A stretch of DNA of 64,000 nt. Source: an uncultured Flavobacteriales bacterium (GTDB lineage Bacteria; Bacteroidota; Bacteroidia; Flavobacteriales_F; PHOS-HE28). A program made the position numbers and the translations under genes. Positions 22,621-33,477 of the stretch are shown in pieces. Below the pieces are notes generated by a model. That model did not search any database, had not been told where the DNA came from, and saw only the letters and a program-made list of their open reading frames with translations. The stretch is from contig CALMPI010000017.1 of NCBI GenBank assembly GCA_937872175.1, forward strand, positions 124,001 to 188,000. The letters are read 5' to 3'. Numbering within the stretch: the stretch's first letter is position 1; every line of letters begins with the position of its first letter.

Positions 22621-23238
22621 ATGCGCCTTCTCCCATTCTCCATCGCCTTGGTCGCCGCCGTGGCACAGGTTTCTGCGAACGCCCAGCGCACCCGCGCCCT
22701 GGAACAACTGGCCATGACCATGGCCGGTTCCTACACCAGCGCCGCCCAGGCACAAGCCGACACCAGCTACTTCGAGATCGAGCTGGAGATGCTGCGCATC
22801 TGGCCCAAGCGCAGGGACGGCGCGTGGTTCTACGTGGAGCAGGCCACGGCCAGCAGCAAAGGGAAGCCCTACCGCCAGCGGGTCTACCGGTTGAGCGAGG
22901 TGAACGACAGCACCTTCACCAGCGAGATCTTCAGCATACGCGGCGGAGAGCGCTACTTCGGAGCCTATGCCGACGCGGCCAGGCTCGCCCTGCTCTCACC
23001 GGATTCCCTGGATCGGCTGGAGGGTTGCGCCATCACCCTGCATCGCCGGGGTGGCACCTACATCGGCAGCACGCACGAACGCGACTGCCCCAACCAGCGC
23101 AGCGGCGCCGCCTACGCCACCAGCGAGGTCACCCTACTGCCCGACCGCATGATCAGTTGGGACCGCGGCTACAACGCCGCTGGTGCGCAGGTGTGGGGCG
23201 CGGAGAAGGGCGGCTACGTCTTCATCAAGCGGCGCTAG
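22621..23238 (+). CDS. CpcT/CpeT-like secreted protein
   Basis: The 205-residue product has a signal peptide (about residues 1-21, ending near ANAQ). The rest resembles the CpcT/CpeT family: LEQLAMTMAGSYTSAAQAQADTSYF, RRDGAWFYVEQATASSKGKPYRQRVYRL-type strands and DRGYNAAGAQVWG near the end. The family is named for phycobilin lyases, but no phycobilisome genes are expected here; in Bacteroidota its role is unknown, perhaps binding a small hydrophobic ligand. Its stop overlaps that of the convergent porP-like gene. Confidence 0.8.
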   Translation: MRLLPFSIALVAAVAQVSANAQRTRALEQLAMTMAGSYTSAAQAQADTSYFEIELEMLRIWPKRRDGAWFYVEQATASSKGKPYRQRVYRLSEVNDSTFTSEIFSIRGGERYFGAYADAARLALLSPDSLDRLEGCAITLHRRGGTYIGSTHERDCPNQRSGAAYATSEVTLLPDRMISWDRGYNAAGAQVWGAEKGGYVFIKRR

Positions 23239-24272
23239 TTCGCCCTCCCCTTGGGCAGCACCCGCCGCTGGTCGCTGAACGCACCCACCCACTGCAGGCT
23301 GATCTCCATGCCCCCGCGCAGGTGCGTGCTGCTGCGCAACCGGCTCACGTTGATGTCGTAGCTGAGCCCGATGGCGAGCTTGCGGCGATGCTCGAAGCGC
23401 AGCATCGGCACCACCGCGTCGTTCCAGCGGTAGAACAGCCCGAGGTGGAAGGCGCTGGATGTCTTGTCGGTGGTGTAGCGCGAGTCCTGGCCGATGCGGC
23501 GGTGCATCAAGGTGCCGAAGATGACCTCGCGCGCAGCGCCTTGTTGCGATACGTACACCTTGGGCATCCAGGTCCAGCGGTCACCGCTGATGCGGAGTTC
23601 CGCGTGCGCCGTGTAGCGCCGCAACAAGCGGTCCTCGGCCGAACCAAAGAGGGAGATGCCGGGCTGGTTGAGGTGCATCACCGCCAGACCCGAGCTCCAC
23701 TGCAACCCGCCAACGGTCTCACCCCGGCAGAGCAGACCCGCCCCCAGGTCGATGAACGCGCTGGTGCTCGAGGCCGCCGTTTCGCCGCTGGGCAGCGAGG
23801 GGTCGTAGCCCGCCCCGTTGTACTGGCTGTCCCAGCGCATGCCGTTCAGCACGGCGCTCCGTTGTCCGTAGCCGCCCTGCAGCCCCAGCGCGATCAAGGT
23901 GCGCTCACCGCTGCGCAAGGCATAGGATACGCTGAGGTTGCCCTGCGTGTCGCCGAACCGGGTGCTGCCCGCGCGGTCGCTGAAGGCATGCACGCCCACA
24001 CCGAGATAACGTCCTCGCATGCGCCCACGGAACACAGGCACATCATAGCTCAGCGCATGCGTGCGGAAGGGGCTGCCCACGCTCTGCCATTGCGTGCGGT
24101 GGAACAGCGCCACCCGTTGGTCGCCCTCGATGTCACCCGCCACGGCCGGGTTCAGCACCAACGGGGCATCGAAGAACTGACTGAAATGCACGTCCTGCGC
24201 ATCACCGCGCAGCGTACCCAGCAGCAGCGCACCCAGGGCCGCGAAGATCTTCTGAATGCGCATGCTGCTCAT
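23235..24272 (-). CDS. PorP/SprF family type IX secretion membrane protein
   Basis: The 345-residue protein begins with a signal peptide and the family hallmark VHFSQFFDAPLVLNPAVAG, followed by an outer-membrane beta-barrel pattern. PorP/SprF proteins attach particular T9SS cargo, especially those with gliding-type (type B) C-termini, to the cell surface. Its ATG overlaps the stop of the 1155-residue type B cargo gene (24269) by 4 nt, the usual genomic pairing. It is the last gene of the eight-gene cluster starting at 32069. Confidence 0.92.
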   Translation of the reverse strand: MSSMRIQKIFAALGALLLGTLRGDAQDVHFSQFFDAPLVLNPAVAGDIEGDQRVALFHRTQWQSVGSPFRTHALSYDVPVFRGRMRGRYLGVGVHAFSDRAGSTRFGDTQGNLSVSYALRSGERTLIALGLQGGYGQRSAVLNGMRWDSQYNGAGYDPSLPSGETAASSTSAFIDLGAGLLCRGETVGGLQWSSGLAVMHLNQPGISLFGSAEDRLLRRYTAHAELRISGDRWTWMPKVYVSQQGAAREVIFGTLMHRRIGQDSRYTTDKTSSAFHLGLFYRWNDAVVPMLRFEHRRKLAIGLSYDINVSRLRSSTHLRGGMEISLQWVGAFSDQRRVLPKGRAN

Positions 24273-27200
24273 CGGACCAGGGTGATGTTACCGGTGCGCT
24301 CCTCCATCGCCCCATCGTCCAGTCGGGCGCGCAGCGTGTAGAGGTACACCCCGCTGGGACTGAGCGCACCGTCGGCCGAACCGTCCCAGCCATGATCGGT
24401 GGTGGTGCTGCGGAACACCTGTGCGCCCCAGCGGTCATACACGGCGAACTCCAGCTCCAGTGCGGCGGGGGCGCGGGCGAAGAGGACGTCGTTCACCCCA
24501 TCACCGTTGGGGCTGAAGGCATCGGGTACGAAGACCGCCTCGCTGTCGCGGATGCAGATGTCCATGGTGAGGCTGTCGGTGCAACCGCCGTCGTTCCACA
24601 CCACGAGCCGCACGTTGTATGTCCCCGCCACACCGTGTTCGTACTGCGGGTCGGCGCCCCAGGTGTAGGGGATCGTATCCCCCGCGATCACCCAATAGCC
24701 GCCGGTGGCGTTGAGGCTGAGGTCGATGAAGGTGACCTCGCGCTGATCCCACGGCACACAGGGCTCATCCGGATTCGGGCTGAACAGGGCGGTGACCGCA
24801 GGCCAGCTGGGGATCTGAATGAGCGTGTCATGCGCACAGCCGGTCTGGTCGTTCGTCACCTCCACGCCCACCACCGTGCCGGCAGGCAGCGCGATGCTGT
24901 CACCCGTCTGCGGCGGAACGGTGGCCCAGGAGAAGGTGTAGGTGCCATCGCCGGACACGGTCCCTGCCACGTGGCCCGCCTCTCCGTAGCACTGCAGCGC
25001 ACTGAACGTGAAGGCCTCCTGGAACGGCGGATGCACCGTGATGGTGATGCTGTCCACCACGGGATCACTGCAGCCATCGGTGGTGGCCACCACGTAGGTG
25101 GTGGTGGCATCGGGCTGCACGTTCTGTGCGGGCACCGGGAACAGGCCATTGCTCCATTGGTGGGTGATGAAGCCGCCCGGCAGCCCGCCGCTGGTGTTCA
25201 CGGTGATGCTGCTGCCCCCGTCCTCGCAGATCGTGCTGTTGCTCACGTCCACCTGCGTGGCGAGCGCGGGATGGTCGGTGAAGGTGAAGCTGGCGCTGCT
25301 CTGGCAGTTCCCGTTGCCCACCGTGTACACGATGGTGTAGGTGCCGTCCGCCAGCTGGGCGGGGTTGAAGAGCGTATCCATCAGGCCGGTGAGCACGCCA
25401 CCGGGCGGCGCAAGAGCCACATCGACAAGCACATCGTTGGAACAGTAGGTGTCCTCCACCCCGGTGATGGAAGCCTGTTGGAAGAGCAGCACCGTGACCG
25501 TGATGCTGTCCGTGCAGCCCGCCGGCGTGCTGTAGTGCACCACGTGCATGCCCTCGCCGGCCGCGGCCGGATCGAAGATCCCGCTGGACGAGGTCGCGGT
25601 CCCCTGCCATTGTGCGCCCGGAGGCACGGCGGCCAGCAGGAAGGGCGCGTCCGCACTGCATGCCGTGAACTGATCGGGCAGCAGCTGCGCAGGGTGCACG
25701 ATGGCCAGCATCGTGTCACCGCAGGTGTTGGCCTCGTAGTGGAGCACATGCACGCCGATCCCCGCGGTGTTCGGATCGAAGACCGGATCGCCATCGGAGT
25801 TGGCGCCGATGCCTGTGCCGGACCAGGTACCGTCCCATGGGGTGCGGCCGGTGCTCTGCTCGTTCAGCACCAGCGCATCATCCCCGGCGCAGAAGAACAA
25901 GGTGTCGTCGTTCACCTCGGTCCAGCCCACCAGGATGCCGATGGTGTCCACGCACCCGTTCGGTGCCGCATACGTGAGCTCGCCCCATCCGTTGCCCGCC
26001 TGCACGGGATCGTACGTGCCGGCGACCGGGTCCACGATGCCATCACCGCTCCACAGGCCACCCGGCGGAACGGGGGCGGGTGAAAGTGTGAACAGACCCT
26101 GGGACGGACATGCGCTGCGGCCATCTCCGATGTCCACCGGCTTCACATGGATGGTGAACTGCGCATCACAGCCGTGAAGCACGTAGTCGATCACGTGGTC
26201 GCCGTCACCGGCCTCATCGGGATCGAAGACACCCTGGATGCTGTCCACGATGCCGGGGCCGCACCATCGCCCACCGAAGGGCTGCGCGGCGATCGCGAAG
26301 GGCCAGGTGCTCTGGCACACGGTGTCCAGCTGGGTCTGCGCCACGATGTCGCCCACGTTCACCGTCACCGTATCGCTGCACGCGCCGGTCGTGTAGGTGA
26401 GCAGGTAGGCACCTGCGACGGCCGGATCGAAGAGGCCGTTCGGCTGCACGTACGGCCCGCTCCAGGTGCCGCCCATCGGCGTGGCCTCAGGCAGCTGGAA
26501 CGGCGCGCTGCCCGGGCAGGCGGCATGGGTGAAGCTGGCATCCATGCTGTCCACCACCACGGTGATGGCATCGGCGCAACCACCGGGAAGCGTGTAGGTG
26601 AGCACGTGGGTGCCGGGGCCGGCGGTGTCCGGTTCGAATGTGCCCAGCAGGCTGTCCAGCACACCGGCACCGCTCCACCATCCGCCCGGCGGCATGGCCT
26701 GCAGGTTGACGGGAGCGGCCGACTGGCACACGGTCGCCGGCAGCGCCGCGATCTGCGGATCGTCCACCAGCACCGTCACCGAGCCCATCGCCGTTTGTCC
26801 GGTGCCATTTTCTGTGACCTGCACGGTATAGGTCGTGGTGCTGGTGGGGCAGATCGTATGGGGCCCCGTACCACCGGTGATCCCCTGGTCCCAGCTGAAC
26901 GTGTACGTGAGGCAGCCCTGCACATCGGCGAACAGGGTGGTGCAGGTGCCTGCGCACAGCGTATCGTCCGCCACCTCCAGCAACACCCCGAGCGGACAGG
27001 TGGTGACCTGCGTGTTCGCGGTCAGGGTGAAGTACCAAAGCGAGTCGCAGCGGTCCTTCAGCCCCAGCGTAAAGGCCACCGTATACGGGCAGTTGCGGTC
27101 GAAGGGCGGATCGGTGCCGAGCAGCACCGAGGAGGTCTCACCTCCGGTGCAGGTGAGGGGCGTGGCCCCGGTGACCACCGGATCTCCGGCCCCGGTGACC

Positions 27201-27736
27201 ACGAAGGCGCCCGGATCGATGGAGTCGCACGGGATCGGGTAACTGAACTGCAGGGTGATGCCTGCGGCGGCACAGAGCGGTGCCACCGGCACGCTCATCA
27301 CCGGCGGCACGGGCGGCTCGGCCACGCTGGTCCATTGCGCTTCGAACCCGCAGTAGGCCACGTTCTCGTCGCTGACGAAGTGGATGGTGAGCTGGCCGCT
27401 GGTGGCGATGATCGGCGGCGGGGCCACGATGCCGGAATACGCCGGCCCGATCTGCGGGCTGGTGATCGAGGGACCATCGTGGAAGGTGAGCAGGTCCAGC
27501 CCCTGTTCCAGGCAGAAGGTGGGCTCGAACACCAGAGTGATGGTGCTGCCCGCATCGATGGTGAAGACCAGGTCCTCGTTGTTGCCGTAGATGTTGCCGC
27601 CCGGGCCCTCCTCACTGTCCAACAGGATGCCCTTGCACAGGGTCACCGTGGTGTCCGTCATGTTGAACTCCGGCAGCAGCTGCGCGTGGAGCGGCAACAG
27701 GCCCGGGACGGCGATCGCGGCGAGCAGGCGACGCAT
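24269..27736 (-). CDS. Giant T9SS type B cargo: CUB-like domain plus repeats, gliding-type C-terminus
   Basis: The 1155-residue protein has a signal peptide (residues 1-18), a CUB-like domain (about 25-135: DLLTFHDGPSITSP, TIHFVSDENVAYCGFEAQW) and then about seven tandem units of 70-85 residues of the form PPGG.WSG.G....G.FDP..AG.G.H.L.Y....C.D. Two further Ig/PKD-like units follow. The C-terminal 90 residues (FVPDAFSPNGDGVND ... YDRWGAQVF ... GVYLYTLRA) are the gliding-motility-associated type B sorting domain. It should be exported by the T9SS and attached through the PorP/SprF protein encoded next. Role is probably adhesion or binding. Confidence 0.93.
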   Translation of the reverse strand: MRRLLAAIAVPGLLPLHAQLLPEFNMTDTTVTLCKGILLDSEEGPGGNIYGNNEDLVFTIDAGSTITLVFEPTFCLEQGLDLLTFHDGPSITSPQIGPAYSGIVAPPPIIATSGQLTIHFVSDENVAYCGFEAQWTSVAEPPVPPVMSVPVAPLCAAAGITLQFSYPIPCDSIDPGAFVVTGAGDPVVTGATPLTCTGGETSSVLLGTDPPFDRNCPYTVAFTLGLKDRCDSLWYFTLTANTQVTTCPLGVLLEVADDTLCAGTCTTLFADVQGCLTYTFSWDQGITGGTGPHTICPTSTTTYTVQVTENGTGQTAMGSVTVLVDDPQIAALPATVCQSAAPVNLQAMPPGGWWSGAGVLDSLLGTFEPDTAGPGTHVLTYTLPGGCADAITVVVDSMDASFTHAACPGSAPFQLPEATPMGGTWSGPYVQPNGLFDPAVAGAYLLTYTTGACSDTVTVNVGDIVAQTQLDTVCQSTWPFAIAAQPFGGRWCGPGIVDSIQGVFDPDEAGDGDHVIDYVLHGCDAQFTIHVKPVDIGDGRSACPSQGLFTLSPAPVPPGGLWSGDGIVDPVAGTYDPVQAGNGWGELTYAAPNGCVDTIGILVGWTEVNDDTLFFCAGDDALVLNEQSTGRTPWDGTWSGTGIGANSDGDPVFDPNTAGIGVHVLHYEANTCGDTMLAIVHPAQLLPDQFTACSADAPFLLAAVPPGAQWQGTATSSSGIFDPAAAGEGMHVVHYSTPAGCTDSITVTVLLFQQASITGVEDTYCSNDVLVDVALAPPGGVLTGLMDTLFNPAQLADGTYTIVYTVGNGNCQSSASFTFTDHPALATQVDVSNSTICEDGGSSITVNTSGGLPGGFITHQWSNGLFPVPAQNVQPDATTTYVVATTDGCSDPVVDSITITVHPPFQEAFTFSALQCYGEAGHVAGTVSGDGTYTFSWATVPPQTGDSIALPAGTVVGVEVTNDQTGCAHDTLIQIPSWPAVTALFSPNPDEPCVPWDQREVTFIDLSLNATGGYWVIAGDTIPYTWGADPQYEHGVAGTYNVRLVVWNDGGCTDSLTMDICIRDSEAVFVPDAFSPNGDGVNDVLFARAPAALELEFAVYDRWGAQVFRSTTTDHGWDGSADGALSPSGVYLYTLRARLDDGAMEERTGNITLVR

Positions 27737-27739
27737 GGC

Positions 27740-28189
27740 TCACGGTGCGTGTGTGGTGTCCGCCACGATGGTGATGGCGGAGGTGGTGAGCTCGTTGCTG
27801 CGGTTGCCTGCGCGGTCGGTGACGAAGAAGCTGTAGGTCATCACCTCCTGGCCGCTGTTGCCCAGCAGGAAGAGCGGGGTCAGTTCCACCTCCAGTTCTC
27901 CCTGGATCGCGACCTGCGCATCCGGGGGGGCCAGTGGAGGGATGTGGTAACCGTCAGCTGTCGCCAACCGGCTGTCCTTGACCCACAAGGTGTACGCATC
28001 CGGATCGTCGGTGCCCAGATCACCATCGCCGTCGGCGTAGGTGAACCGCACCCGCACCGGCTCATCGAACGCCATGACCTGCTGCGGGCCGACGCTCACC
28101 AGCTCGATCGCCGGCACCGGGTCCAGCGCGGCCTCCTTGCGGCAGGCTGCAAGGGTCAGGACCAGCCCAAGAGCGATCGCGGACCTCAT
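27740..28189 (-). CDS. Putative lipoprotein with one Ig-like domain
   Basis: The 149-residue protein has a lipobox (LTLAAC, Cys16) and one beta-rich domain resembling those of PKD/cadherin-like proteins: VRFTYADGDGDLGTDDPDAY has the acidic loop of a calcium-binding strand turn, and SFFVTDRAGNRSNEL is an edge strand. It lies 3 nt before the giant cargo gene and overlaps the gene upstream by 4 nt, placing it inside the surface operon. Function unknown; a partner of the giant protein is plausible. Confidence 0.8.
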   Translation of the reverse strand: MRSAIALGLVLTLAACRKEAALDPVPAIELVSVGPQQVMAFDEPVRVRFTYADGDGDLGTDDPDAYTLWVKDSRLATADGYHIPPLAPPDAQVAIQGELEVELTPLFLLGNSGQEVMTYSFFVTDRAGNRSNELTTSAITIVADTTHAP

Positions 28190-29121
28190 GGGATGCGGAG
28201 GGTGAATAGGGTGACCACTTCGGTGCTGCTGCCGTCGTTGGGCACCTCCGTCACCGTGTCATGGTCGCCATCATCCACATAGGCCCGCACGAACACCGTG
28301 CTGCCGGAATTCATGCCGGTGAGGTCGAGCGCAGCGCGGTGCGTGAAGGTGACCGTGGCCCCGCTGAAGTCGGTTCCCGCACAGGTGGAGCCGGTGTGCA
28401 GCGGCTGCTCCGGCACCGTGGGAAAAGCCGCGAGCGATGGTGCGGCGCGGAAGGTGTTGTGTGCGAACGCGGCGGGCGCCGTGGCATCATCCACGAAGGC
28501 GAACCACAGGTCGATCGGCGCGGCAGGGACCTCGATGGGCTGGAGCCCCACACCCGAAGCCCGTGGATAGGCCGGGCCCGTGGTGCCGGCAGGCACCGCC
28601 CTCAGACCCACGGCCTGCGGCCGCTGGTTGCCCACGGAGGGCGGTTGGCCATACATGTCCAGGGCGCCACCCGCGATCCATGCGGTGATGGCCGCGATGT
28701 ACGCCTGCTCGTTCGCCGGCCAGTCGCTGTCCTGCAGCAGGTCCAGCGGCATGATGCCGCTGGTGTTCGGGACGAAGGCGGTGAGGCGCTCGTGCAGAAA
28801 GGAGCCCTGGGCATCGCCCGGCACCACGCGGTAGGTGAAGCTCTGCTGCGGGTCGTTCGCCGTCACTGGGTGCAGCACGAGCGAGTTGTACGCACCGGCG
28901 ATGGAGCGGAACTCCGGCTCGAAGGTGCCGTCATGGCAGCCGCTCACCGCGCAGGTGGGCCGGAAGATGCGCTGGTGCAGCCCGGCGAAGTTGCTCAGCG
29001 GAAGCAGCTGCGTCACCGGCTCCTCCGCTGGACGCTCGATCGCATCGAAGGGGTTCTCCTCCTTCTTGCAGGCGACCAGCGCGAGCGCCGTGCTCAGGTT
29101 GATGAGGATGAGGACGCGCAT
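28186..29121 (-). CDS. Lipoprotein with a heme-c-like CX4CH motif
   Basis: The 311-residue protein has a lipobox (LALVAC, Cys18) and a cytochrome-like segment FRPTCAVSGCHDG (Cys57, Cys62, His63). The spacing is CX4CH rather than CX2CH; cytochrome-like domains with wider spacing occur in secreted bacterial proteins, but heme binding here is unproven. The motif is followed by VVPGDAQGSFLHERL and IMPLD, as in planctomycete-type cytochrome domains. The C-terminal third is beta-rich, including TVFVRAYVDDGDHDT. It is 3 nt downstream of the DUF1501-like gene. Confidence 0.8.
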   Translation of the reverse strand: MRVLILINLSTALALVACKKEENPFDAIERPAEEPVTQLLPLSNFAGLHQRIFRPTCAVSGCHDGTFEPEFRSIAGAYNSLVLHPVTANDPQQSFTYRVVPGDAQGSFLHERLTAFVPNTSGIMPLDLLQDSDWPANEQAYIAAITAWIAGGALDMYGQPPSVGNQRPQAVGLRAVPAGTTGPAYPRASGVGLQPIEVPAAPIDLWFAFVDDATAPAAFAHNTFRAAPSLAAFPTVPEQPLHTGSTCAGTDFSGATVTFTHRAALDLTGMNSGSTVFVRAYVDDGDHDTVTEVPNDGSSTEVVTLFTLRIP

Positions 29122-29124
29122 GGT

Positions 29125-30456
29125 TCAGATGCGGTCGAAGAGGCTCATGCTCTGGGGGTCGATCAACCCGGCCGAGAGCACTTCGTTCTTGATGCCCAGC
29201 AGCTCGGCCACCGTGGGCACCACGTCGGTGACGAGCCCCACGGGCGAGCCCTCGGAACCCACCTGCAGCCCGGCCTGCACCCCGGCACCGGCCATCAGGC
29301 CGAAGACCCGGTGCGCGTTGGCGTCGCTGTGGTCGTAGCTGAACCAGTCGTTCTGGTCCTTGATGGCGTTGGGGTCGTCGTTGCGCCCGCACTCGGGCAC
29401 CGCGATCAAGGTGGTGTTGCCCGCCATGCCCGGCACCTGGGTCTGGATGAAGTTCCACAGGTGGCCCACCGCATGGTCGGCACGGTGCAGGCTGGCCAGG
29501 TAGCCGGTGAAGTTGCTGTGACACCCGTCCACTCCGCTGAGGTTCACCACCGTGAGCGTGGGCTGGAACCACCGGATCACCTCGCAGGCATAGCCCACGG
29601 TGGTGAGGTCGCCGTTGTCGTGCACCGGCGGGTGGGCGATGGCGCCGTTCTGCGTGCGCTGGAACATCTCGGCCATGAAGGCCTTGATGTCCGCCTTCTC
29701 GGCCGCCGTGTTCCCGATGCCCGTGGGCGCATCCACCACATGTTCGAAGCTGTTGTCGAGAAAGGCCTTCATGGCGTACACCGGACCGAGCTGCTCCTCG
29801 GGGTGGTAGACCTTGGCATCGCCGAGGTACTGCTGCCCCAGGGGACCGAACGTGACGTTCGGTGCGAAGAAGTTGGCCCCGTAGCGCGCGCCATAGGTGG
29901 GGTGCTCGCTGTAGTTGAGGAGCGGTACACTGCCCCCGATGCTGTTGCCCACGAACCAGCACTTGCTGGCCGGCACGCCCGCATGGCGGCGCAGGTACTC
30001 GAAGATGGTGGGGTTGAGCGGCTTCTGCTGCAGTCCCTGCGTGGCGGCCGTATTGCCCTGAAGCAGCGAGTTCAGCCCGCCGAAATGGCCGGTGCTCACC
30101 GCACGCATCTCCCGGAACAGGGTGCCCTGCTGCTGCAGCGATTGCCCCAGCACTGACGGGATGGGGTTGATGCCACCCAGCCCGGTGCCGTACACGATCT
30201 TCATCTCCGGCGGCGCGCCCGACAGCATGTTGTAGAGCACATTGCCCTCATACGGTTCGCCCTGGCTGTCCGCCAGGTAGCGCTGCAGTACGCTCTCCTG
30301 CTGGCGCACGCCGCCGGCGAAGAGCACCAGCACCACGTGCTGGGCCATGCCGCCTCCGCTGGCCGCGAACAACCGGCCGCTGGGCAGGATGTAGGGCGCG
30401 GCGAACGCGGCGGCGGCGGCGGCCCCGGCCTTACGGATGAATCGGCGACGGTCCAT
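29125..30456 (-). CDS. Tat-exported DUF1501-like protein
   Basis: The 443-residue protein opens with a twin-arginine signal (RRRFIRKAG then an Ala-rich segment) and fits the DUF1501 group of alkaline-phosphatase/sulfatase-like fold proteins: VVLVLFAGGVRQQES, MRAVSTGHFGGLNSLLQG, and AVPECGRNDDPN are blocks with the usual metal-site positions. In other phyla such proteins occur with DUF1800 or cytochrome-bearing lipoproteins; the substrate is unknown. Tat export implies folding, often with a cofactor, before crossing the inner membrane. Neighbours lie 3 nt on each side. Confidence 0.8.
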   Translation of the reverse strand: MDRRRFIRKAGAAAAAAFAAPYILPSGRLFAASGGGMAQHVVLVLFAGGVRQQESVLQRYLADSQGEPYEGNVLYNMLSGAPPEMKIVYGTGLGGINPIPSVLGQSLQQQGTLFREMRAVSTGHFGGLNSLLQGNTAATQGLQQKPLNPTIFEYLRRHAGVPASKCWFVGNSIGGSVPLLNYSEHPTYGARYGANFFAPNVTFGPLGQQYLGDAKVYHPEEQLGPVYAMKAFLDNSFEHVVDAPTGIGNTAAEKADIKAFMAEMFQRTQNGAIAHPPVHDNGDLTTVGYACEVIRWFQPTLTVVNLSGVDGCHSNFTGYLASLHRADHAVGHLWNFIQTQVPGMAGNTTLIAVPECGRNDDPNAIKDQNDWFSYDHSDANAHRVFGLMAGAGVQAGLQVGSEGSPVGLVTDVVPTVAELLGIKNEVLSAGLIDPQSMSLFDRI

Positions 30457-30459
30457 GGC

Positions 30460-30939
30460 TCAGTAGTAGAGGTGTTCGTTGCTCAGCGCGAACGCGTAGT
30501 AGACCAGCTCGGACGTGATGTTGGGGTCCGCGGCGATCATGTTGCGGAACCAGGTGCGTTCCGCCTCGGACGGATCGCGCACCAGGAAGCGCCGGTAGGT
30601 ATCGGTGATGAACGCGTCCAGGTCGGCGCGCATCGCCGTGTCCGAGGGCAGGATCACCCCCGGCTTGTTCATGAAGTTGCTGATCAGCACTTCGCGCGCC
30701 AGCTCCTTGTCGCCGATGCTCTCGATGCACTGCCCCAGTTCGAAGAGCGCATTGGCCGAGAGGCCGGTCTGGAACAGGTTGGCGTGCAGGATGGCCGCAT
30801 ACTCCTCGTTGGTCTTCAGTTGGTCCTTGTCCGGGCTGGGTGGACGCAGGTCCACCTGGTCCAACTCGTAGATCGGCTCCTTGCGGCAGCTCGTGGCCAC
30901 CAGCAGCAGCATCAGGGCGAGGAGAAGGGGGTTGCGCAT
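30460..30939 (-). CDS. Small lipoprotein, DUF4214-like helical part
   Basis: The 159-residue protein has a lipobox (LLVATSC, Cys18) and a helical remainder. FITDTYRRFLVRDPSEAERTW and the final ALSNEHLYY resemble the repeating LGR-type helices in DUF4214/DUF1800-like surface proteins, as does the larger lipoprotein at 31095-32069. That resemblance is weak and mine. It sits between the 43-residue membrane peptide and the DUF1501-like gene (3 nt). Confidence 0.75.
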   Translation of the reverse strand: MRNPLLLALMLLLVATSCRKEPIYELDQVDLRPPSPDKDQLKTNEEYAAILHANLFQTGLSANALFELGQCIESIGDKELAREVLISNFMNKPGVILPSDTAMRADLDAFITDTYRRFLVRDPSEAERTWFRNMIAADPNITSELVYYAFALSNEHLYY

Positions 30940-30950
30940 GGCGCTGCGGT

Positions 30951-31082
30951 TCAGCGGGTCATCGCGGTGGCCTGGAGGTCATCTGTGGCCGGACGGCTAT
31001 CAGGGCGGCGGGCGACGACGATGGCGGCGACGATCACAATGATCAGCGCGGCTTGTACGATGGTGCGGATCTTCGGTTCCAT
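30951..31082 (-). CDS. 43-residue single-pass membrane peptide
   Basis: This short frame lies between two operon genes with 12 nt on each side. It encodes MEPKIRTIVQAALIIVIVAA at the start: one hydrophobic helix (about residues 7-25) with positive charges before and after (KIR, VARR), followed by a polar tail rich in Asp/Thr. The ATG is near a purine-poor region with no obvious ribosome site, so it may depend on coupling. The steady spacing and helix make chance unlikely. Function unknown. Confidence 0.6.
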   Translation of the reverse strand: MEPKIRTIVQAALIIVIVAAIVVARRPDSRPATDDLQATAMTR

Positions 31083-31094
31083 GGTGTTGATGGT

Positions 31095-32069
31095 TCAGTT
31101 GAGGTTGGCGTATTCATCGGTGATGAGGATCCGCAGCAGCAGGTCCTCGATATCGGTGGAGGGCCCCAGCGCGTCCATGGCCGACACGGTCTCGCCCGTG
31201 TCGGGGAGGCGGCCCATGAAGGTCACATAGCTCCAGCGCACCAGCCCTTCGCGCGCTTCGGTGCTGGCGCTCACCAGTGCGGCGTACTCGCCCTTGTTCT
31301 GGCCGCTTTGCCCGAACAGCACGCCTGCCGTGTTCTGCTCCACCATGGCGTAGGCGATGTCGAACTCCGCATCGGTGGGGTAGCGCAGCAGCAGGTTGTC
31401 GAAGGTGGCGTTCACGTAGTTGAAGCTGTTCATGTGGATCTCGTCGTACACCGCGTTCAGCACCATGCGGCGCATCATCTCGGTGATGCCGATGAGACCG
31501 TCGCGGAGGTCGGTGCGGCTGCGTTTGAGCGCGAGCAGGCGACCCAACGTGGTGTTGGCGGCGTTGAGGCCGCTGGTATTGCCCCCCAGCGAATCGGCCA
31601 AGGCCTGCTGTTGGGCGTTGCCGATGAAGCCATCGATGACCTCGTCGCTCACCCCCTCCAGGAAGCGGGCCTTGCTCAGCTCGTAGAGGCGCGTGCAGAA
31701 CTTGTTGCGGTAGCTGCTGTCGTCCGCGAGGAAGGCCGTGCTCGTCATCACCTTCTGCACCAGCGCGGATCGTGCGCTCATCGACAGGCCGGCGGCCTCC
31801 AGCGCGCCCACCTCTGCGCTCATCTCCGCGTCGAGCGGCTCGCGCCCCAGCAGATCGATGAACAGGCGGTTCACGTAGTTCTCCACCAGCACGGTGGGCA
31901 CCCCTTCATAGTTCGGGGCCTGGTTGCCGCCGATCACCTCGGGCTCCTTGCGGCAGGCCGTCAGCGCCAGCACGCACAGCATCAGCAACCACCATCCGGT
32001 GGCGCGCAGGGTGGCGCAGCGTTCCCAGTGCTCCGTGCGGCAGAACATGGCCGGTTGAACGGTGGCCAT
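31095..32069 (-). CDS. Lipoprotein with DUF4214/DUF1800-like helical repeats; first gene of the surface operon
   Basis: The protein (324 residues from the ATG at 32069; 317 from the ATG at 32048) has a hydrophobic segment WWLLMLCVLALTAC with a lipidated cysteine. The mature part is helical: ENYVNRLFIDLLGREPLDAE, RNKFCTRLYELSKARF, YVTFMGRLPDTGE and ILITDEYANLN. The YVNRLF..LLGREP string recalls DUF4214/DUF1800 units, which occur with DUF1501 proteins elsewhere. An AGGAGG-like sequence lies about 14 nt before the 32069 ATG. It starts the minus-strand cluster ending at 23235. Confidence 0.8.
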   Translation of the reverse strand: MATVQPAMFCRTEHWERCATLRATGWWLLMLCVLALTACRKEPEVIGGNQAPNYEGVPTVLVENYVNRLFIDLLGREPLDAEMSAEVGALEAAGLSMSARSALVQKVMTSTAFLADDSSYRNKFCTRLYELSKARFLEGVSDEVIDGFIGNAQQQALADSLGGNTSGLNAANTTLGRLLALKRSRTDLRDGLIGITEMMRRMVLNAVYDEIHMNSFNYVNATFDNLLLRYPTDAEFDIAYAMVEQNTAGVLFGQSGQNKGEYAALVSASTEAREGLVRWSYVTFMGRLPDTGETVSAMDALGPSTDIEDLLLRILITDEYANLN

Positions 32070-32124: not shown

Positions 32125-32622
32125 TCACTCGGGCCGTACGTTCTGGACCTCGGCGCTCCACCGGCGGACGAGGCGGTTCTGGAACAGGGCGCCGAGGAGG
32201 ATGGTGGTTGCGGTGGCGATCGACACCAGCACCATGAACGTGGCATTGATGCGCACCCGCACCATCACCTCGGAGAAGAAGGCCGCATACAGCCCGAGCA
32301 CGGACCAGTACATGAAGACGAGGTGCAACTCCACCTGGCGCACGGTGCGCGGCCGCAAGCGGATGGCGCGCATGCCGGCGAACACGGTGAGCGCGCTCAC
32401 CACGGCGGCCACGTGGAACGGGCCGAAGGTCCCGAACAACCGGTACATGCCGAACGCGGTCGCGTTCAACACCGCCATGCTGGCGACGTACACATGGCCG
32501 GTCCGCCGGTGACCCCGGGTGCCCTTGCGGCGCAGCAGCACCAGCGCGCCGAACACCATCGCCAGCAGGGCCGCACCAATGTGCGCCCAGCTGAGGAACG
32601 TGTATGAGCCGATCTCCTTCAT
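32125..32622 (-). CDS. DUF2306-like membrane protein
   Basis: The 165-residue protein has about four membrane helices (SWAHIGAALLAMVFGALVLL; ATTILLGALF near the end) and a loop with GHRRTGHVY that fits DUF2306, a family of heme- or quinone-linked-looking membrane proteins without proven function. The ATG at 32622 overlaps the stop of the small regulator gene by 4 nt (ATGA); the frame is open for 25 more codons but these lie inside the regulator gene. It ends a three-gene unit from 33477. Confidence 0.75.
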   Translation of the reverse strand: MKEIGSYTFLSWAHIGAALLAMVFGALVLLRRKGTRGHRRTGHVYVASMAVLNATAFGMYRLFGTFGPFHVAAVVSALTVFAGMRAIRLRPRTVRQVELHLVFMYWSVLGLYAAFFSEVMVRVRINATFMVLVSIATATTILLGALFQNRLVRRWSAEVQNVRPE

Positions 32623-32909
32623 GGTCGACCCAGATATCCTTTGATCGCCTTCACATACGCCTCGAACGCACGCACCCCTTCCGGCGTCAGCCGGCACATG
32701 GTGTTGGGATAGTTGTCGCGCATGCCCTTGGTCACCTGGATGTAACCGGCCTCCTTCAGCTTGCTGATCTGCACACTGAGGTTGCCGCGCGTGGCACCGG
32801 TCTTCTCCAGCAGGAAGTTGAAGTCCGCGCGTTCCACGGAAACGAGCAAGCTCACCACCGCCAGCCGCAGCTGGTTGTGCAGCACGGGATCAAGCGGTGC
32901 GAAGGGCAT
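32619..32909 (-). CDS. Winged-helix transcriptional regulator, 96 aa
   Basis: The small protein is a single winged helix: LRLAVVSLLVSVERADFNFLLEKTG, recognition helix region TRGNLSVQISKLKEAG and a wing YIQVTKGMRDNYPNTMCRLT. It matches the 90-100-residue regulators that in many bacteria precede or follow genes for small membrane proteins. The ATG directly follows AGGAGG, an unusually short spacing. It overlaps the upstream membrane-protein gene by 20 nt and the DUF2306-like gene by 4 nt, so it likely regulates its own operon. Confidence 0.88.
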   Translation of the reverse strand: MPFAPLDPVLHNQLRLAVVSLLVSVERADFNFLLEKTGATRGNLSVQISKLKEAGYIQVTKGMRDNYPNTMCRLTPEGVRAFEAYVKAIKGYLGRP

Positions 32910-33477
32910 CCTCCTGGCGTTTGAGCATCAGGCCCGGGATGATGTAGCCGAACACCATGGCCCCGCAATAGAGCAGGGTGAGCGTGAGGGGGTCGTCGCT
33001 GAAATGCATGGCGATCCCGGCGGCCCAGAAGAGGATGCCTCCGAGGACGAGCGGGCGGAACCGCATGATCTGGCCTGTCATGAACGTGGGGATGCCCGTG
33101 AGCAGCGTGACCATGGCCCCGGGATCACGTCGATCCAGCACGCTGACCACGATCATGATCATCATGGTGATGACGAACGAGGCCCACAGCCAGCCGATCA
33201 GGCCGTCCATGGGATTGTTCACGGGCTCGCGGCGGCCTTGCCGTGCACCGTGAACGGAGCTCACGATGCCGCCGAGGATCCCGGCGATGCCCCAGGGAGC
33301 CCCTTGACCCCAGGCATCGGGCTGGTCGCGCAACACGTAGGTGGCGAACATGGCCAGGGTCAACAGCACCCCCCACATCAGGAAGTAGAAGCTCAGTTTG
33401 CTGAAGCTCTTCTTGGCCTGGCCGATCATGCTCTCGATCAGCCGCAGGCTCTGTTCAGGGGTCATCGGGGTCTCCAT
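32890..33477 (-). CDS. Membrane protein, about 195 aa, of a regulator-linked operon
   Basis: The protein has an N-terminal amphipathic part (EQSLRLIESMIGQAKKSFSK) and about five membrane helices (FLMWGVLLTLAMFATYVL; GILGGIVSSV; SFVITMMIMIVVSVL; GGILFWAAGIAM; YCGAMVFGYIIPGLML). I know it as the membrane partner of the small winged-helix regulators seen in Bacteroidota, without function. Its promoter is the best in the window: TTTG, 19 nt, TATGTTTG (33498-33528). Confidence 0.8.
   Translation of the reverse strand: METPMTPEQSLRLIESMIGQAKKSFSKLSFYFLMWGVLLTLAMFATYVLRDQPDAWGQGAPWGIAGILGGIVSSVHGARQGRREPVNNPMDGLIGWLWASFVITMMIMIVVSVLDRRDPGAMVTLLTGIPTFMTGQIMRFRPLVLGGILFWAAGIAMHFSDDPLTLTLLYCGAMVFGYIIPGLMLKRQEDALRTA

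Follow-up and report, generated by a model that had tools for sequence, protein, structure and literature searches.

Proteins of the DUF1501, DUF1800 and PSCyt/PSD families are widespread, sometimes with dozens of copies per genome, and their function is not known. In Planctomycetota and Verrucomicrobiota, DUF1501 is known to accompany a PSCyt1 domain and a helical partner, a combination still uncharacterised, as is that of DUF1501 with DUF1800 in others (PMC5615132, PMC5122149, PMC4452313), which bears out an earlier note on this DNA that had described DUF1501 with DUF1800 or cytochrome-like proteins as an uncharacterised set in other phyla. The function of the PSCyt1-PSCyt2-PSD1 plus DUF1501 sets is unknown (PMC5615132, PMC4452313), and the DUF1800-DUF1501 pair also occurs with bacterial chitin synthases (PMC5122149). 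Each T9SS type B protein relies on, and binds, a PorP/SprF protein of its own (PMC9143113, PMC12618676).

The gene block described here shares features with each of these systems. As in the PSCyt1-PSCyt2-PSD1 (DUF1549/DUF1553) sets with adjacent DUF1501 of Planctomycetota and Verrucomicrobiota, an exported DUF1501-type protein is encoded beside a PSCyt1-type domain; however, the cytochrome and helical domains of those sets are fused in one large protein, whereas the block has separate lipoproteins with divergent helical partners and adds a small lipoprotein and T9SS parts. In the DUF1800-DUF1501 pair, too, an operon encodes a helical protein beside a Tat DUF1501 protein, but by score the proteins of the block belong to neither Pfam family, and they are joined by a cytochrome and T9SS parts. 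As in T9SS type B adhesins of the SprB-SprF type, a protein with a type B C-terminal domain is followed by a PorP/SprF gene, but here the secreted protein keeps one length and cysteine pattern across orders and stands behind a fixed five-gene core. Finally, PafA, sulfatases and lipoteichoic acid (LTA) synthases share a fold and metal-site-like acidic and histidine motifs with the DUF1501-like protein, which differs from these alkaline phosphatase superfamily enzymes in having no Ser/Thr/Cys conserved where the nucleophile would be expected from sequence. Judged by sequence, the block is a Bacteroidota-specific, T9SS-tied form of the known uncharacterised DUF1501 sets. No description of it was found among the open-licence papers searched, and those on DUF1501, DUF1800 or PSD1 provided context and gave no function.

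Gene content and layout of the block

The window is a 64,000-nucleotide stretch from an uncultured Flavobacteriales bacterium. Eight minus-strand genes lie head to tail at 23235-32069, listed here in transcriptional order with their main domains:

31095..32069, minus strand: P0008 (D4214L), predicted helical lipoprotein (CRKEPE) with a DUF4214/phycobilisome-linker-like fold; core gene 1
30951..31082, minus strand: P0007, 43-aa single-helix membrane peptide, MEPKxRT(L/I)VQAALI, between the two DUF4214-like genes
30460..30939, minus strand: P0006 (D4214s), small predicted helical lipoprotein (CRKEPI), weakly DUF4214-like; core gene 2
29125..30456, minus strand: P0005 (D1501), DUF1501-like protein of the alkaline phosphatase superfamily with a Tat-type leader (MDRRRFIRK); core gene 3
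28186..29121, minus strand: P0004 (Cyt), predicted lipoprotein (CKKEEN) with a PSCyt1-type cytochrome c-like N-terminal domain and a C-terminal domain of unknown fold; core gene 4
28933..28953, minus strand: CX4CH heme-type motif of P0004 (CAVSGCH), kept in 111/112 locus entries
27740..28189, minus strand: P0003 (LpIg), predicted lipoprotein of about 150 aa (CRKEAA) with a DGDGDLG motif; core gene 5
24269..27736, minus strand: P0002 (T9), 1155-aa T9SS type B cargo with CUB and Cys-rich repeats; type 1 blocks only
27335..27595, minus strand: CUB domain of P0002 (PF00431, E 1.4e-6)
24281..24532, minus strand: T9SS type B C-terminal domain of P0002 (CHU_C, E 2.5e-15, 56.8 bits versus 27; TIGR04131, E 7.6e-12, 45.2 bits versus 35)
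23235..24272, minus strand: P0001, outer-membrane barrel of the PorP/SprF family (PF11751, E 5.6e-43; TIGR03519, E 4.1e-51, 174.2 bits versus 90.55)

Neighbouring genes overlap by 4 nt at 24269-24272 and 28186-28189, and the remaining gaps are 3, 3, 3, 11 and 12 nt. The longest open reading frame of the first gene, P0008, extends to 32246, and its plausible start is the ATG at 32069. The coordinates and spacing confirm the earlier note, which had reported eight minus-strand genes with gaps of 12 nt or less or 4-nt overlaps; the export signals that it listed (four lipoproteins, a Tat-type protein, a T9SS type B cargo and PorP/SprF) are all present, as is the CX4CH site in one lipoprotein, P0004. 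Its eight-gene unit holds in that all genes are there, but the core comprises five (in the order D4214L, D4214s, D1501, Cyt and LpIg), the T9SS cargo and PorP belong to one of two paralogous types, and the 43-aa peptide is confined to the genus. The core thus consists of four predicted lipoproteins and one Tat-type protein.

Small genes upstream (32125-33477, minus strand), one of them MarR-like in looks, stay beside the block inside the genus and were not found adjoining it outside the genus; the block transcript might start within them. On the other side, a CpeT/CpcT-family gene (22621-23238, plus strand; PF06206, E 8.9e-46), of a family that takes its name from bilin lyases, is convergent with the PorP/SprF gene, their ends overlapping by 4 nt, and occupies the same position in several genus relatives. 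A phage or defence origin of the block was considered and rejected, with no matches in PHROGs or PADLOC.

Conservation of the block and its two types

P0005 orthologues were present in 36 of the 98 relatives' genomes in which they were sought. The five-gene core was complete and in order, mostly with short gaps, at 35 of the 37 loci read; the exceptions are L050, without the large DUF4214-like gene, and L068, which consists of fragments only. A scan of named genomes gave 80 loci of the type found in the window (type 1), mostly from metagenome-assembled genomes and single cells, with hosts, nearly all of them uncultured, mostly in the Flavobacteriales, Sphingobacteriales, Chitinophagales and Saprospirales. 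Nearly all carry the full core in order; at L115, L134 and L144 the DUF1501-like gene alone is visible, the T9SS protein is missing from L114, and contig edges truncate most of the remaining incomplete type 1 loci. The 37-locus and 80-locus sets share some contigs. An independent co-occurrence sample of 99 genomes drawn from the class contained full-length P0005-type genes in 38 places and the large DUF4214-like gene in 36 full-length and two partial places. The block occurs in about 3 in 10 genomes drawn from the class. All but two of the full-length DUF1501-like genes (36/38) have the large DUF4214-like gene just upstream, within ~2 kb; the unpaired ones lie on G085 contig C11 and G135 contig C296.

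Because the five-gene order recurs at nearly all loci of the relatives and the pairing is near-constant in the 99 genomes, the association of these genes exceeds chance. The search for conserved co-occurrence that had been proposed earlier found the DUF1501-like and large DUF4214-like genes almost never apart, and the scattering in relatives that had been named as contrary evidence was not seen, with order kept at 35/37 loci and pairing at 36/38. Within the genus, the block is flanked by GcpE and an M23 peptidase gene. The distance between these flanks is 11.6 kb in the window genome; in G023 and G009, which lack the P0005 gene, it shrinks to 1.3 and 2.5 kb, respectively, an empty site in the same genus. 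The gene set is inherited as one block across Bacteroidota and, since it passes down in this way, very probably encodes one cell-envelope machine not described before. The DUF1501 question becomes testable in a compact, low-copy block whose gene set is fixed, which includes a secreted partner and which some members of one genus naturally have and others lack.

Outside the genus, two kinds of block occur, type 1 and type 2, and several genomes carry both. Identity to P0005 is 60-68% in type 1, with one outlier near 49%, and about 40% in type 2. Each of the five core protein trees separates the two types at 100% bootstrap, and this shared split indicates that the block duplicated or diverged as a unit. 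In type 1 the core is followed by the T9SS protein of about 1150 aa (68/80 named loci, about half of which also show PorP/SprF), whereas type 2 blocks are without P0002. Type 2 blocks have no conserved T9SS neighbour, other T9SS type B giants lying near 3/12 blocks only; those found beside type 2 blocks are divergent and carry PKD domains (L059:1310-5611, L061:407-6208 and L067:2149-6603). In several type 2 blocks the core is directly preceded by an M20 peptidase family gene (family c84, found at eight loci; for example, L055:11830-13197 and L059:5597-7087). Many type 2 CX4CH lipoproteins contain an extra adjacent cysteine pair (TNCCFVN) before Met-Pro, which type 1 proteins lack (for example, L055:8010-8963 and L061:10590-11549).

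Features of the encoded proteins

No window protein matched DUF1501, DUF1800 or a cytochrome family above cut-off in Pfam or NCBIfam. P0005 itself matched no Pfam family at E <= 1, scoring below the DUF1501 (PF07394) gathering cut-off, and only 1/25 orthologues matched DUF1501 (E 0.0032). Profile-profile comparison with DUF1501 gave a probability of 95.6% when the leader was included, 40% when it was left out and 6% for a larger set; because the result swings so widely with the choice of alignment, kinship to DUF1501 rests on predicted fold and motifs. The motifs GG.R..(E/D), D..H, PE.GR and DH.D are present in 117/117 locus entries and GH(F/Y) in 115/117, and the ordered motifs GG..Q.(D/E), H, D..H, E.GR and DH follow the same order in canonical DUF1501 proteins and P0005 orthologues. 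The label 'DUF1501-like' given earlier is thus upheld by motif order, fold and relatives, but not by a Pfam match of P0005 itself or by the alignment-dependent profile result.

An alkaline phosphatase superfamily fold is predicted for P0005. Its AF2 model (pLDDT 75.9) aligns with PafA (5tj3) with a VIA Z of 24.8 and an rmsd of 3.8 over 293 aligned residues; Foldseek returned 285 matches at E <= 0.001, the best being sulfatases, alkaline phosphatases and LTA synthases, and global hhalign against sulfatase-type proteins gave E 2e-10. In Pfam, the window protein matched neither Sulfatase nor Phosphodiest, and some orthologues do. The nucleophile would be expected where the helix following the second strand begins; at that point, as located from sequence, no Ser/Thr/Cys is conserved and G-H-F/Y is found instead, so P0005 may not be a canonical hydrolase. 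Hand alignment of the L-L-x-G helix end with sulfatase C-x-P-S-R...L-T-G places His124 at this position, which global hhalign does not fix.

P0004 has a predicted PSCyt1-type N-terminal domain with a heme-type motif. Hhalign against PSCyt1 segments gave E 5.5e-16 and 98.6% probability, the other module proteins, used as controls, being negative, and the distal Met region MP..WI..GA is present in 110/112 locus entries. A single-sequence Pfam search returned no PSCyt1 (PF07635) match. Among PSCyt1 proteins of this class that Pfam does match, CX4CH is likewise seen in place of CX2CH, and the only PDB sequence match is the diheme cytochrome FoxE (E 0.0024).

The DUF4214/DUF1800-like helices noted earlier are present in two lipoproteins, but the DUF4214 matches (E 0.001 and 0.05) are both under the Pfam cut-off and the DUF1800 similarity of P0008 is distant only. 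P0008 scores 20.7 bits against DUF4214 (PF13946; cut-off 23.2), and its orthologues match DUF4214 in 21/23 cases at E <= 1 (best 3.1e-7) and PBS_linker in 11/23. The AF2 model (pLDDT 90.3) aligns with a PBS linker domain over 117 residues (rmsd 2.3) with a Z of 9.6, modest for a helical protein. P0008 had no Pfam match to DUF1800 (PF08811), one orthologue matching at E 0.041; hhalign gave E 8.1e-6 and 84% probability over 77 columns. Membership of PSD1/PSCyt2 was rejected for D4214L, with weak matches in few orthologues (best E 0.0028) and an hhalign E of 0.0009 at 23% probability. P0007 was ruled out as a core member; related peptides occur at eight genus loci (L032-L038 and L043) and are absent elsewhere.

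P0003 had no Pfam match and probably adopts an Ig-like beta-sandwich; C16, D53, D57, D125 and G128 are invariant in an alignment of 37 sequences. Full-length P0002 orthologues (75 loci, 979-1297 aa) are evenly conserved with many near-invariant cysteines, a sequence pattern unlike that of a freely varying adhesin, and P0001 is the probable shuttle or anchor of P0002. The optimal lipoprotein surface signal (LES) of C. canimorsus is C-X-K-(D/E)2-X (PMC5080379). Only P0004 (CKKEEN) satisfies it, P0003, P0006 and P0008 having CRKE plus a non-acidic residue, although this C. canimorsus consensus may differ in the present lineage; the strict LES gives no support for surface display of three of the four lipoproteins.

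Possible functions

The explanation we tentatively prefer is an envelope module evolving as one unit, in which a metal-enzyme complex builds or modifies a P0002-bearing structure. P0005 would be a periplasmic, metal-dependent hydrolase or transferase of phospho- or sulfo-esters, its active site being unusual. Both helical DUF4214-like lipoproteins would tether it to the outer membrane along with P0004, the PSCyt1-type cytochrome lipoprotein, which would carry out electron transfer. The complex would assemble or modify a structure linked to the envelope, with the Cys-rich, rod-like P0002 as its exposed portion; P0002 would leave through the T9SS and be held by its own PorP/SprF protein, P0001, as in SprB-SprF (PMC9143113, PMC12618676). 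Three points count against this reading: type 2 blocks are without P0002, so the rod is not needed for core function, and few have another T9SS type B giant nearby; P0005 may not be a canonical hydrolase; and the strict LES does not back surface display of most of the lipoproteins. Identity of P0005 between genus members is mostly 76-78%, versus 74-80% for IspG/GcpE, and P0005 is usually single-copy per type per genome. Such housekeeping-level conservation accords with an endogenous role in the envelope no less than with uptake, and with low copy number and no uptake or CAZyme genes noticed as recurring neighbours it makes the cell's own envelope or the rod itself the more likely target, rather than a nutrient; the retained length and cysteine pattern of P0002 were also counted toward an endogenous role.

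A surface polymer-processing or uptake complex, in which a polysaccharide or particle from outside would be bound by P0002 and stripped of phosphate or sulfate by P0005 while the cytochrome passes electrons, is somewhat unlikely, yet nearly as likely as the endogenous envelope view, because PSCyt genes of Verrucomicrobia are found close to sulfatases and some PSCyt genes have carbohydrate-binding modules (PMC5615132). It is the usual guess for PSCyt/PSD/DUF1501 sets, and the CUB domain of P0002 and the nearness of the P0005 fold to alkaline phosphatases and sulfatases accord with it. However, the core contains no transporter, SusCD or glycoside hydrolase gene, none was noticed recurring beside it at the loci read, and P0005 is usually present as one highly conserved copy per type, not as many diverging copies. 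The earlier reading of a surface enzyme or uptake complex survives as one conserved unit, kin to DUF1501/DUF1800/cytochrome sets, tied to a T9SS protein and without description in the papers searched, but the enzyme or uptake role stays putative, and the core has no TonB/SusCD or CAZyme genes.

To return to the endogenous envelope role, a more specific wording is rather unlikely: that the Bacteroidota branch of a widespread DUF1501 machinery is an envelope machine in which a Tat-exported enzyme of alkaline-phosphatase fold, whose nucleophile position holds His, works with a PSCyt1-type cytochrome lipoprotein to assemble, modify or power a Cys-rich surface rod secreted by the T9SS. Less probable again is a structural or adhesive assembly without catalysis, with P0005 as a pseudoenzyme and the cytochrome-like domain as a disulfide- or metal-stabilised scaffold presenting P0002. 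His124 in place of a conserved Ser/Thr/Cys and the scaffold-like helical lipoproteins, with their PBS-linker-type fold, are consistent with this, but a scaffold would need less than the conservation seen, with the acidic and histidine metal-site motifs in 117/117 entries and almost every cytochrome keeping both Met-Pro and CX4CH. That the genes are accidental neighbours, unrelated exported proteins sharing an operon, is highly improbable: tight spacing in the window alone fits an operon of convenience as well as a complex, but order is kept across many families, the block has duplicated, single genes are nearly absent and relatives show an empty site.

The module forms a third, separate line beside the two canonical systems, since both coexist apart from it: a DUF1800-DUF1501 pair elsewhere in the window genome (G000 contig C23, L155:8148-11404) and PSCyt1-PSD1-DUF1501 sets in a few genomes of the class. 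The DUF1501 protein of the L155 pair has a Tat-like leader and ends in a tail similar to T9SS sorting domains of type A, a sequence arrangement that suggests Tat and then T9SS export.
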